Origin: Mesoflavibacter sp.
Lineage (GTDB): Bacteria > Pseudomonadota > Alphaproteobacteria > UBA8366 > Aestuariispiraceae
Reading direction: 5' to 3'
Assembly: GCA_017792345.1 (NCBI GenBank)
Contig: CP051228.1
Location: forward strand, 4,246,148-4,310,147
Length of the DNA stretch: 64,000 nucleotides
Shown here: positions 26,955 through 31,710 of the stretch, in pieces
Numbering within the stretch: position 1 is the first letter of the stretch
Layout: each line of letters opens with the position of its first letter
The notes under the pieces: model-generated
What the model was told of the DNA's origin: nothing
Seen by the model: only the letters and a program-made list of their open reading frames with translations
Databases searched by the model: none
Position numbers and translations under genes: made by a program

Positions 26955-27824
26955 TTATTGCCCGCCGCCAAGCTCGTGCACATAGACCGTCAGCATCTTG
27001 ATGGTCACCGGGCTCAAACGATTGTCCCAGGCCGGCATAACGCCGTGGCGGGGCCGCGCGATCTGCGTCGCAATTTCGTCGGCATTTCCGGCATAGAGCC
27101 AGACCGCGTCGTTCAAAGCCGGCGCACCGAGGGTCGGATCGCCCGCCCCATCCGCCTTGTGGCAGGCTGCACATTGTTCGGCATAGACGGTTTGACCCGC
27201 CGTCGCCATTGCCGCGTCATGGTCGAGATTCGCCAAGCTTAAGACATACTGTGTCGTTGCGACGATCTGGGCACGGTCCAGTATGCCGTCTCCGAAGGGG
27301 GGCATTTCGGAATAGCGCGTATCCTCATTCTGCTCCCACCGGATGCCATGACGGATGGTTGTTTGAATGGCGTTCAGATCGCCGCCCCAAAGCCAGTCGT
27401 CATCCTGAAGGTTGGGGTAACCCGGCCCGCCTGTCGCGCCCGTACCGTGGCAGGCGGCGCAGTTTTCGGCGAAGGCGGCACCACCGCCGGCGATCGAAAA
27501 GGCCAGCAAGTTCTGGTCGCCGCGGATCGTTTCCAGGTCGGATTCAGCGACTCGGGCCAGAATGTCGCCTTGGGCAGCCTTTGCCTCCGCCAGGCTTTCC
27601 TCAACCTCGACACGCGCGGAATAATCGGCGGTGCCCTTCAGGTATCCATCGCCATACGGCACCGAGGGAAAGATCACCATATAGCCGATGGAGAACACGA
27701 CTGTGGCGTAGAAAACATACAGCCACCAGCGCGGCAGCGGATTGTTCAGCTCGCGCACCCCGTCCCATTCATGACCGGTCGTATCAACGCCGGTCGCCTG
27801 ATCCTTTTCAATCTTGGTCGGCAT
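26955..27824 (-). CDS. ccoP: Cytochrome cbb3 oxidase subunit III (diheme CcoP)
   Basis: Protein of 289 residues. An N-terminal membrane helix (about 33-53) is followed by two class I cytochrome c domains, with heme motifs CAACH at about 127-131 and 216-220 and axial Met regions SEMPPFG and HGVMPAW. CcoP passes electrons from cytochrome c toward CcoO/CcoN. ATG 27824 has GGAGG at 6 nt. It is the last gene of ccoNOQP, and ccoGHIS assembly genes are not in the window. Confidence 0.93.
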   Translation of the reverse strand: MPTKIEKDQATGVDTTGHEWDGVRELNNPLPRWWLYVFYATVVFSIGYMVIFPSVPYGDGYLKGTADYSARVEVEESLAEAKAAQGDILARVAESDLETIRGDQNLLAFSIAGGGAAFAENCAACHGTGATGGPGYPNLQDDDWLWGGDLNAIQTTIRHGIRWEQNEDTRYSEMPPFGDGILDRAQIVATTQYVLSLANLDHDAAMATAGQTVYAEQCAACHKADGAGDPTLGAPALNDAVWLYAGNADEIATQIARPRHGVMPAWDNRLSPVTIKMLTVYVHELGGGQ

Positions 27825-27835
27825 TCTGCGCCTCC

Positions 27836-28027
27836 TCAATTCAGGCGGTCCGGACGGCTCTCCGTCCGATGGCCCGCATCGTCGTCAATCGGGATACGCG
27901 CCGCGTGATCCATCTGCGCCTGCCGCGCCTTGGTCGGCCACAATGCGTATGCGATGGCGACCACGAACATCAGCAACAGCCAGGCGTTCCATCCGGCATT
28001 GGCCAGTTCAACAATCATGTCCCACAT
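27836..28027 (-). CDS. ccoQ: Cytochrome cbb3 oxidase small subunit CcoQ
   Basis: Protein of 63 residues with one membrane helix (about 13-30, WNAWLLLMFVVAIAYALWP) and the typical CcoQ follow-on PTKARQAQMDHAARIP. It stabilises the cbb3 complex. It lies between ccoO and ccoP. A longer frame beginning upstream within ccoO is not the real start. ATG 28027 has a GGGAG box. Confidence 0.88.
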   Translation of the reverse strand: MWDMIVELANAGWNAWLLLMFVVAIAYALWPTKARQAQMDHAARIPIDDDAGHRTESRPDRLN

Positions 28028-28041
28028 GGTTGGCTCTCCCT

Positions 28042-28770
28042 TTACTGGCGCAGCGCGTCGGCGTCGTACTGGCTGAAATCGACCAGCGTGCCGAGCATCT
28101 GCAGATAGGCGACAAGCGCGTCCATTTCCGTCAAACGGGCCGGATCGCCGTCGAAATCGCCGACAACGGCCCCCGGATAACGTGCCTGGATCGCGTCCCA
28201 ATCGCCGTCCTGATCGGCCTGCCCCTTCATGTCGGCCTGCGCCTCCGCGATCATTTCCTGGGTATAGGGGACGCCGACATAGGTCAGCGACGTCAGATGA
28301 TCGGCAATATCCGACGGGTCGATCTTCCGATCTGCCAGCCACGGATAGGCGGGCATGATCGATTCCGGGACAACGGCGCGCGGATCCATCAAATGCAGGA
28401 CCTGCCAATCGTTCGAATACTTGCCGCCTACCCGCGCCAGATCGGGGCCGGTTCGTTTCGATCCCCATTGAAAGGGATGGTCATACATGCTTTCCGCCGC
28501 GATCGAGTAATGGCCATACCGCTCGACCTCATCCCGAAAGGGGCGAACCATCTGCGAATGGCAGTTGTAACAGCCTTCCCGGATGTAAATGTTCCGCCCG
28601 GCCAGTTCCAAGGGGGTGTAGGGCCGCACGCCGTCCACTTCCTCGATCGTGCTTTCGATGGTGAACAGGGGCACCAGTTCGACGATCCCGCCGATGGACA
28701 CCGTCACCAGAACCAGCACGGTCATCAGCGACACGTTGGTTTCAATCAGCTTGTGCTTGATTAAGGACAT
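28042..28770 (-). CDS. ccoO: Cytochrome cbb3 oxidase subunit II (monoheme CcoO)
   Basis: Protein of 242 residues with an N-terminal membrane anchor (about 14-34) and one cytochrome c motif, CYNCH at about 67-71 ([15 protein letters not shown]), with the axial Met in [17 protein letters not shown] box precedes ATG 28770. It lies 17 bp after ccoN in the ccoNOQP operon. Confidence 0.94.
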
Positions 28771-28787: not shown

Positions 28788-30254
28788 TCATTCGGCCGCG
28801 GCCGGTGCGGGCTGAAGCCGCTCTACCGGGGTTTCGCTGCGCAGGTCGCCGCGAATGGTGCGGCACAGGTTGTAGAGCATGATCAGGGCACCCAGCAGGA
28901 AGAAGATCCCGCCGATCGCACGGATCACATAGAAGGGGTGCATGGCATCGACCGTTTCGACGAAGCTGTATTGCAGGAAGCCGAGCTCGTCATAGGACCG
29001 CCACATCAGGCCCTGCAGGATCCCCGACACCCACATCGAGGTGATGTAGAGGATGATGCCGATGGTCGCGATCCAGTAATGCCAGGCGACGAGACGCAGG
29101 CTGTATAGCCGTTCGCGGTGCCACAGAACTGGAACGAGGTAATAGACCGCGCCAAAGCTGATCAGCGCGACCCAGCCGAGGGCGCCGGAATGGACATGCC
29201 CGATGGTCCAGTCGGTATAGTGGCTGAGCGAGTTTACCGCCCGGACCGACATCAGCGGCCCTTCGAAGGTCGACATGCCATAGAAGGCGACGGCGGTGAC
29301 CATGAAACGCAGGACCGGATCGGTGCGCAGCTTCTCCCATGCACCGGACAGGGTCATGATCCCATTGATCATGCCGCCCCAGCTGGGCATCCATAGCATG
29401 ACCGAGAAAACCATGCCCAGGGTCTGCGCCCATTCCGGCAGCGCGGTGTAGTGCAGATGGTGCGGGCCGGCCCAGATATACAGGAAGATCAGCGACCAGA
29501 AGTGGACGATCGACAGACGGTAGGAATAGACCGGGCGGTTCGCCTGTTTCGGAATGATGTAATACATCATGCCCAGGAAGCCCGCGGTCAGGAAGAAGCC
29601 CACCGCGTTATGGCCGTACCACCATTGCGTCAACGCATCCTGAACGCCGGCGAAGGCGGAATAGGACTTGGCGCCGAAGAACGAGACCGGGACGGACAGA
29701 TTGTTGACCACATGCAGCAGCGCGACCGTCACGATGAAAGCCAGATAGAACCAGTTGGCGACATAGATATGCGGTTCCTGGCGGCGCATGATCGTGCCCA
29801 GGAAGACGATCAGATAGACCACCCAGACCAGGGTCAGCCACAGATCGACATACCATTCCGGCTCGGCATATTCCTTGCCCTGGGTGACGCCGGTGACATA
29901 GCCGACCGCCGCCATCACGATGAACAGCTGATAGCCCCAGAACAAGAACATCGCCACTTCCCGCCCGCCATACAGCGGCACCCGGCAGGTGCGCTGCACG
30001 ACATGCAGGGACGTGGCGAACAACGCGCATCCCCCGAAGGCGAAGATGGCCGCCGACGTATGCAGCGGCCGAAGGCGCCCGAAGGACAGCCAGGGAAGAT
30101 CGAAGTTCAGGACGGGGAACGCCAACTGCAGGGCGATGACCACGCCCACCAGAAAGGCGACGACACCCCATAGGGCGGTCGCAACCGTGAAATACCGGAC
30201 AACGGTTTCATCGTATTGCGGCGCAGCCCCCATTTCGGCATGCGTTGCTTTCAT
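28788..30254 (-). CDS. ccoN: Cytochrome cbb3 oxidase catalytic subunit CcoN
   Basis: Twelve-helix heme-copper oxidase subunit of 488 residues. Heme and copper ligands lie in recognisable motifs: [31 protein letters not shown] (Cu-B His), AGPHHLHYT, and [17 protein letters not shown] (heme ligands). The cross-linked active-site Tyr is expected in [11 protein letters not shown]. It reduces O2 with very high affinity and pumps protons, and is normally induced at low oxygen. That fits the FNR/FixK-type site centred 88 bp before its start. Confidence 0.95.
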
Positions 30255-30307
30255 CTCTCAAATCTCCAACCGCGTTTCGGCCGCCAGATGGCGACTCAAC
30301 TGTCCGG

Positions 30308-30377
30308 TTTATGACGCCGGTGCCGTCGAGCTTCATTGATGCAGGTCAACGCAGGCTCACAAACTCGGCGTCATAAA
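30308..30377. promoter_or_regulatory. Mirror-symmetric divergent FNR/FixK-type promoter
   Basis: The box TTGAT-GCAG-GTCAA lies at 30336-30349, a near-consensus FNR/FixK site. A perfect 12-bp inverted repeat (TTTATGACGCCG at 30308-30319, CGGCGTCATAAA at 30366-30377) has the same centre, 30342.5. Each arm carries CATAAA read outward, a plausible -10 hexamer centred 32 bp from the box centre. This is exactly the class II activator spacing (box at -41.5). One site can therefore serve ccoNOQP on the left and the microprotein gene on the right. Confidence 0.8.
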
Positions 30378-30424
30378 GGCGTCAACGAAACGGGTCCGCC
30401 CGCCGAGATGGAAGGAGTGACGAG

Positions 30425-30589
30425 ATGACAAGTTGGGGATTGGGTATCGTAATGGCCCTGATCGCCTTGGTCGGCCTGGTTCTGGCCGCCGGCGCGGCCG
30501 ACGCCACCATGGAATGGGTCGGACTGCTGCTGACGCTATTCGGGATCGGCTATAATTACGGATTGATCGTCAAAAACACCGGTCACTGA
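30425..30589 (+). CDS. 54-residue two-helix membrane microprotein
   Basis: Small gene with ATG 30425 and an AAGGAG box at 30412-30417. The product has two hydrophobic segments (about 4-22, [18 protein letters not shown], and about 30-48, [20 protein letters not shown]) joined by an acidic turn. It sits directly opposite ccoNOQP across the symmetric FNR-type promoter, so it is probably made under low oxygen. It resembles small subunits or assembly microproteins of terminal oxidases in size and shape only. Its stop overlaps the convergent lhgO stop by 7 bp. I do not recognise a family. Confidence 0.65.
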
Positions 30590-31710
30590 GCCGACAGGCG
30601 GTCCAGGACTTCTGCTGCAATCGCCAGCGAAGACGTCAGTCCGGGGCTTTCAATGCCGCACAGGCCAACAAGGCCCGGCACGCCATGCTGCGCCGGGCCG
30701 TCGATCTGGAAATCGTCGCCAACGGCGCCCTGCGGATTCAGTTTCGGCCGGATACCGGCATAGCCTGGGATTAATACGCCGTCGGCCAGGTCAGGGTAAT
30801 AACGCCGGATCGCCGCATAGAATGCCTCTCCGCGCGCCGGATCGACCTCCAGGACCCTTTCCTCGTCCAGCCCGCCGATCCATTGCGTGTCCGGCCCAAA
30901 CCGCATGCCGCCCGCCATATCCAGCGTCACATGGACGCCCAGCCCCGACCGGACCGGCACCGGATAGATCAAATGGCTGAAGGGTGCCCTGCCCGACGCG
31001 ATGAAGTAGTTGCCCTTGCAGAAATATTGTCCGGGGATCGCGTCGTTCGGGTATCCGGCAATGGACCGCAAGACGGTCTGGCTGTGCAATCCCGCCGCGA
31101 CAACGACCTCTCGTGCTTCCAGGGCCATCGGCGTCGCGCCGCCGGTTTCGATTCGGATGCGTCCCGATACGATTTCGCCCCTGATGACCGGGGTTTCGAA
31201 TGCGACCATCGCCCCCGCCGCCTCGGCATCCCCTTGATAGGCCAGCATCAACGCATGGCTGTCGATTATGCCGGTAGACGGGGACAGCAAGGCCTTTGTG
31301 CAGCGCAACGCGGGCTCCTTACTCATTGCCTCTTCACCGGACAGCCAAATCAAGTCGTCCGGCCCGTCGACACCATTGCCCCGCGCCTTGGCGAGAATGC
31401 CGTCCAGGACCGCCTCTTCCTCATCCGTGGTCGCGACGATCAGCTTACCGCAGCGCCGGTGCGGCACGCCGTGAGAGACGCAATACTCGTAGAGCATCCG
31501 CCGCCCGCGCACGCAAAGACGCGCCTTGAGGCTGCCTTGCGGATAGTAAATGCCGGCGTGGATCACCTCGCTGTTGCGGGAACTGGTTTCGGTCCCAATT
31601 GCGTCCGCCTGTTCGATCACCACGACTTCGCGGCCGGATTCCGCAAGAGTTTTGGCGCATGCCAACCCGACCACCCCGGCGCCGATCACGACGGTTTCGA
31701 CTTCATCCAT
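30583..31710 (-). CDS. lhgO: L-2-hydroxyglutarate dehydrogenase/oxidase-like FAD enzyme
   Basis: Protein of 375 residues, DAO superfamily. FAD motif [20 protein letters not shown] at 7-26, then the LhgO-type sequence [21 protein letters not shown], and the C-terminal GYAGIRPKL and [19 protein letters not shown]. The family oxidises L-2-hydroxyglutarate to 2-oxoglutarate and feeds electrons to the quinone pool. It is divergent from metC and convergent with the microprotein gene. Confidence 0.87.

Follow-up and report, generated by a model that had tools for sequence, protein, structure and literature searches.

The locus described here raises the question whether a single site for an FNR-type activator, lying between ccoN and a small gene of opposite orientation, serves transcription in both directions, and what the small gene encodes. 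In the window (the complete stretch of 64,000 nucleotides that was analysed), the minus strand carries ccoN (28788-30254; 488 aa, without an N-terminal two-helix extension; COX1, and TIGR00780 with 754 bits against a cut-off of 583), ccoO (28042-28770; FixO), a ccoQ-like ORF (27836-28027; 63 aa when read from an internal Met of the listed ORF, with sequence relatives in other ccoN loci) and ccoP (26955-27839; FixP_N and Cytochrome_CBB3). The plus strand carries the divergent gene (30425-30589), which encodes a protein of 54 aa with two predicted helices; past it, on the opposite strand, lies a gene for an FAD-dependent oxidoreductase (30583-31710). Likely ribosome-binding sites could be read from the sequence for both divergent genes: GGAAGGAG (30410-30417, plus strand), seven bases 5' of the ATG of the small gene, and GGAG (30264-30267, minus strand) for ccoN, where GGTTGGAGAT is retained in G012 (the closest relative found, with a CcoN that is 95% identical) and in G013, a genome of the same genus. 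The window's genome also encodes an FNR-type regulator (L136, 1486-2316) with the motifs CX2CX7C and ETVSR, which we take to be marks of an oxygen-sensing regulator of that type, and a box is found immediately upstream of its gene.

The FNR/FixK-type box TTGATGCAGGTCAA (30336-30349) is a palindrome of the TTGAN6TCAA type, common to both directions, with no mismatches to TTGATNNNNRTCAA and one to TTGATNNNNATCAA. Its axis, at 30342.5, is also the axis of a perfect 12-bp inverted repeat, of which the left arm TTTATGACGCCG (30308-30319, minus strand) and the right arm CGGCGTCATAAA (30366-30377, plus strand) are exact reverse complements that pair at 24 to 35 from the axis 30342/30343. Each arm contains the hexamer CATAAA, a candidate -10 of ccoN on the left (30308-30313) and of the divergent gene on the right (30372-30377). 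On both sides the centre of the hexamer lies 32.0 bp from the centre of the box and the hexamer begins 22 bp past the box edge, as is expected for a box centred at -41.5 (class II spacing). Judged by sequence, each side of the single activator site thus has a -10 that could be used. The initial annotation had described the box at the centre of the repeat and the mirrored class II geometry of the two -10 candidates, and both descriptions proved accurate. It had also called the common axis hard to explain by chance, and in 100,000 shuffles of the two flanks, which preserved single-base and not dinucleotide composition, arms of at least 12 bp never arose, arms of 11 bp arose in 0.001% and arms of 10 bp in 0.003%. 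Box-like sites as such (up to 2 mismatches) are not rare in the window (27 versus 17.9 expected, a count reached in 1 of 100 shuffles); the weight rests on the quality of the match and on its position upstream of ccoN.

A promoter that works one way only would be an alternative, with the box driving ccoNOQP, the right CATAAA being vestigial or there by chance, and the small gene being under its own control. The symmetry beyond that of shuffled flanks argues against it, and no further match to the sigma-70 consensus was found within 30150-30700. The nearest relatives point in both directions. In G012, where the box is identical, GTCATAAA flanks the box on both sides at the same distance as here, though the surrounding far flank differs at many places, which again disfavours a one-way promoter. 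In G013 the CATAAA on the ccoN side is retained (its distance is unchanged in both relatives), and the far side has TTAAGT at 21 bp in place of CATAAA, as a one-way promoter would allow. The flanks in G013 read identical to those of Pacificispira spongiicola (L001).

The perfect arms themselves are confined to very few genomes. Perfect arms centred on the box axis reach 12 bp in this genome, 10 bp in G012 and no more than 6 bp at the other 80 of 82 distinct ccoN boxes, and an identical hexamer at spacing 22 on both sides occurs only in this genome and G012 among 155 loci. The initial annotation had proposed the conservation of both arms upstream of ccoN in relatives as a check; outside the closest relative the arms are lost while the box stays, the outcome it had named as refuting its reading. 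The arms in G012 comprise 10 perfect base pairs, or 15 paired letters if one extra base is allowed, and the paired letters beyond GTCATAAA differ between the two genomes (CGGC on the inside here versus GCGCAC on the outside in G012). From these comparisons the palindrome is best described as a recent, local feature and not a conserved element, the conserved part being the position of the two candidate -10 hexamers. Set beside L134, positions 30308-30377 of the window show arms that differ between the sister species and match within each. Such a pattern, in the one species pair in which it is seen, suggests concerted change, e.g. template-switch correction of a quasi-palindrome.

Another possibility is that a second regulator uses the arms as operators, or that they fold into a hairpin or cruciform, the match with -10 spacing then being secondary. 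Single-strand DNA folding does exceed that of shuffled sequences in this genome (z -3.1) and in G012 (z -4.9), but the other four family genomes that have the small gene fold ordinarily (z -1.9, -0.6, +0.2 and -0.7), and a structured DNA or RNA element was set aside on that account; Rfam gave no matches. The arm core GGCGTCATAAA recurs at two more sites in the genome (G000:C1:2234009-2234019, L148, and G000:C1:4114298-4114308, L149), and L001 has two other dyads near its box, of the form GGTTA-N4/5-TAACC. Those dyads, found upstream of ccoN in L001 and L083 (G013), resemble operators of a second regulator; the copy on the divergent side reads GGTTA-CACT-TAACC, and that in the ccoN leader GGGTTA-AAGTG-TAACCC. 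Against such a role of the arms stand their near absence elsewhere (longer than 6 bp in just the two boxes named) and their position, as transcripts from these promoters, beginning near 30301 and 30384, would include neither arm. A second regulator with operators here is not needed as an explanation, and we regard this whole alternative as very unlikely.

We then compared ccoN promoters across the Alphaproteobacteria. The discovery set consisted of 105 ccoN loci (80 plus 25), of which 87 have a TTGAN6TCAA box within 500 bp upstream of ccoN; removal of the 18 without a box and of 5 exact duplicates left 82, near-duplicates being retained. Two loci, L003 and L010, lack a box within 500 bp of ccoN, with one box about 1.1 kb upstream that was not used. 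The hold-out set comprised 125 further loci (25 loci and 100 regions picked by eye among the matches listed, with genus repeats partly omitted and with the strand and ccoN start of these 100 taken from match coordinates); 41 were dropped for want of a box within 450 bp and 11 for being more than 70% identical to a retained locus, leaving 73 distinct ones.

Motif-free logos of the 82 discovery loci showed an A at position 23 and a T at position 27 beyond the box, with frequencies of.77 and.44 on the ccoN side and of.61 and.50 on the far side. In the hold-out set, 32 of the 73 loci had both letters on the ccoN side and 13 had them on the far side, a count to be set against a mean of 3.6 and a maximum of 10 for other far-side spacings. 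The far-side frequencies in the hold-out set were.52 for A23 and.32 for T27, so that T27 taken alone is weak there. A -10-like hexamer at 22 bp from the box is likewise seen on the ccoN side in the combined collection of 155 distinct loci. A -10 matrix of E. coli frequencies was then applied (the logos are independent of it). With a divergent neighbour, the far-side hexamer at spacing 22 scored in the top decile for its own locus in 37 of 64 loci of the discovery set and 19 of 43 of the hold-out set; the figure was 3 of 24 for tandem neighbours and 6 of 24 where the orientation of the neighbour was not called. The presence of this hexamer in divergent loci, including those of the hold-out set, speaks against a one-way promoter; the tandem loci, in turn, indicate that a box can work one way elsewhere. 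On balance we consider the one-way reading unlikely for the window's locus.

The dependence on orientation was also seen for the two letters together (A23 plus T27 on the far side in 42 of 107 divergent versus 2 of 24 tandem loci, Fisher p 0.0035), and not for A23 alone (68/107 versus 11/24, p 0.17). A control with the hexamer reversed reached the top decile in 34 of 155 loci versus about 16 expected, a mild rise that is perhaps due to the partial symmetry of -10 hexamers. When neighbours were called by ORF length there was no effect of orientation (11/44 versus 10/37); this procedure labelled the window's own locus tandem because a convergent gene sits behind the small gene, and the homology-based calling used above was adopted after that null result had been seen. 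A CcoN tree supplied no more than 7 independent pairs, on well supported branches, with neighbours of different orientation, and a test on these was underpowered and not significant: over random pairings the hexamer differed in the same way in 2.6 pairs, the other way in 0.5 and not at all in 3.9.

The divergent neighbours belong to unrelated groups, named by Pfam matches to the first 150 residues of one member per large group (the hemerythrin and Usp matches being just under the curated cut-offs). The far-side hexamer was in the top decile for DUF2189 (17/35), hemerythrin-like (20/31), DsbD_2 (4/9), the small two-helix gene (5/8), a PUA-domain group (1/5), Usp-like (0/3), four single ones (2/4) and an unnamed group (7/12) in which the first 150 residues of one member gave no Pfam match. 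L094, one of the eight discovery loci with a divergent small gene, has a poor far-side hexamer, CACCTT. As far as can be read from the promoter sequences, ccoN promoters of the Alphaproteobacteria repeatedly show a mirrored class II plan, and its presence depends on how the neighbour is oriented. The initial annotation had presented the locus as a mirror-symmetric promoter with two divergent genes; the geometry, the conservation of the divergent gene and the recurrence of the plan with neighbour orientation uphold this, whereas the perfect arms are not conserved. The promoter reading is right in outline, and the perfect palindrome is incidental to the wider plan.

The identity of the divergent gene is the more interesting result. 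Its 54-aa product had no match in Pfam above the cut-off and none in NCBIfam; the gene is divergent from and adjoins ccoN in all 6 family genomes in which it was found, among 14 searched. A profile seeded with eight divergent copies detected relatives beside ccoN in many loci, and since this profile is partly trained on its own matches, a separate profile-profile comparison was made between 16 free-standing copies and 16 copies fused to CcoN. The two matched at 97.8% (E 7.5e-13, score 60.5, 18% identity), against scores of at most 14.1 for 30 column shuffles and at most 16.6 for 22 windows of the CcoN body. An Asp in the turn of the two-helix family is near-invariant. AlphaFold2 predicts helices at residues 2-23 and 27-52 of the 54-aa protein, with a mean pLDDT of 93.

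The domain is fused to the N-terminus of CcoN in 73 of the 155 loci; near the ccoN start of the others, it forms a separate gene on the ccoN strand in 8, a separate divergent gene in 9, and is not found in 65. A wider search located a copy behind the divergent neighbour in 5 of these 65 loci, and tblastn a sixth (L014), which brings the free-standing copies to 23 of 155, 15 of them on the divergent side, and leaves 59 loci without a counted copy (the copy in L158, about 1.1 kb upstream on the ccoN strand, was left uncounted). In the six loci concerned (L154, L155, L157, L172, L177 and L014) the position of the free-standing copy behind ccoN's divergent neighbour makes it probably part of the same divergent transcript. 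On the CcoN tree, the root of which is not fixed, the distribution of fused and free-standing forms takes 2 changes, and that of divergent and same-strand copies among the free ones takes 1. We also considered that in most alphaproteobacteria the small ORF opens the cco operon as a gene of its own; the reading frames ruled this out, since 73 of the 81 copies on the ccoN strand continue in frame into CcoN. As a further observation, the CcoN matches of G004, G009, G010 and G011 (L100, L101, L104 and L111) contain one TAG inside the aligned stretch; G009, G010 and G011 belong to the window's genus and have a more distant CcoN (75-76% identical), with the fused extension in L101 and L104.

Could the small protein be an unrelated two-helix protein that lies beside ccoN by chance? 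Short hydrophobic hairpins can resemble one another, the identity in the profile alignment is low, and a profile search of the PDB gave no convincing relative (the best of 10 being an unrelated hydrolase, E 0.036). Yet the profile score is far above that of both controls, the Asp in the turn is near-invariant, free and fused forms both adjoin ccoN, and their distribution fits so few changes on the tree, which makes a chance neighbour distinctly unlikely in our judgement. By profile comparison, then, the 54-aa protein is homologous to the N-terminal two-helix extension of CcoN. The box would most likely co-express ccoNOQP with a detached piece of CcoN, and the small protein may be a physical part of the oxidase.

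We consider it probable that the locus is a bidirectional class II promoter, in which one activator site serves both ccoNOQP and the free-standing CcoN-extension protein. At class II promoters the downstream monomer of the activator contacts the sigma subunit, and a two-fold symmetric dimer presents that surface on both sides. At low oxygen, a dimer of the FNR type (FnrN/FixK family) would bind the single box, and each half-site would act as the downstream subunit for a polymerase with its -10 at 22 bp. As this -10 is present on either side, transcription would start near 30301 on the minus strand, into ccoNOQP, and near 30384 on the plus strand, into the 54-aa gene, both presumably dependent on FNR. 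The small protein being the free-standing form of the CcoN extension, the promoter most likely keeps a detached oxidase piece in step with the oxidase. The two directions would probably fire alternately and exclude each other, because each polymerase reaches past -50 and the box is centred at -41.5 of both, so that two polymerases would overlap at the box.

A more far-reaching reading, which we put forward tentatively and hold to be possible rather than probable, joins these elements: in the Alphaproteobacteria, ccoN would commonly be controlled by a mirrored class II switch, at which a single FNR/FixK dimer sets off two polymerases in turn; on the far side, this lineage would have the free, oppositely facing two-helix N-terminal domain of CcoN, with the shared site holding its ratio to the oxidase; and the near-perfect arms would have been left behind when template switching corrected a quasi-palindrome that the two -10s had seeded. 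If true, this would be a widespread natural case in which a single activator dimer serves a mirrored pair of class II promoters, and at which polymerase competition could be measured directly. It would also draw attention to a two-helix component of alphaproteobacterial cbb3 oxidases that has been overlooked and is fused, free on the same strand or free on the opposite strand, and what the extra N-terminal segment of CcoN does could be tested by removal of the separate 54-codon gene, leaving the catalytic subunit untouched.

Several known systems resemble parts of this arrangement, and the comparisons that follow refer to the parts of the reports consulted. Within a literature that excludes most subscription journals, we found no paper joining a single FNR site, divergent promoters and class II, and no report of a free-standing N-terminal domain of CcoN or of mirrored -10 spacing at ccoN. 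In E. coli, CRP at a single target reportedly activates divergent promoters (El-Robh and Busby 2002). As here, one dimeric activator of the CRP/FNR family serves two divergent promoters; that case is a model system, whereas the present site is a natural ccoN site of the FNR type with equal spacings. In Sphingopyxis granuli an Fnr site lies between ccoN and ompW (PMC7713065); the partner gene is a different one, and the part of that report consulted does not mention a mirrored -10 geometry. In Rhodobacter an FnrL region lies between ccoN and uspA, both of which are in the regulon, so that a divergent ccoN neighbour in an FnrL-bound region is shared with our locus; R. sphaeroides is listed with two separate FnrL sites for ccoNOQP and uspA, versus one box here (PMC4634722, PMC2908626). 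The Usp neighbours among our own loci are without the mirrored -10.

Bidirectional promoters of E. coli show -10 symmetry, and a protein that activates one direction tends to act as a repressor of the opposite one, by way of polymerase competition (PMC12825309). They likewise obtain two directions from one symmetric sequence with competing polymerases, but there the core promoter elements themselves are shared, while the present locus shares an activator site and has a separate -10 on each side of it. At E. coli nrf, FNR represses the divergent acsP1 (PMC5434802). Both cases caution against assuming that the two directions fire equally.

For the small protein, one counterpart is the extra N-terminal CcoN helix TMH0 of the R. 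capsulatus supercomplex, located near TMH3/TMH4 and called species-specific (PMC7876108). It is likewise a part of CcoN that precedes the 12-helix body; compared by description only, TMH0, the coordinates of which were not deposited, is one helix, whereas the family described here has two, and it is found fused or free in the numbers of loci given above. Judged by its distribution in our loci, the two-helix CcoN-extension family is much wider than one species. CcoM of Pseudomonas stutzeri, a cbb3 oxidase subunit of 36 residues (PMC10433244), is also a tiny protein that goes with a cbb3 oxidase, and, again by description only, is shorter than the 54-aa protein. Seen beside these systems, the promoter looks known in kind, and the split, turned-round CcoN domain looks new.
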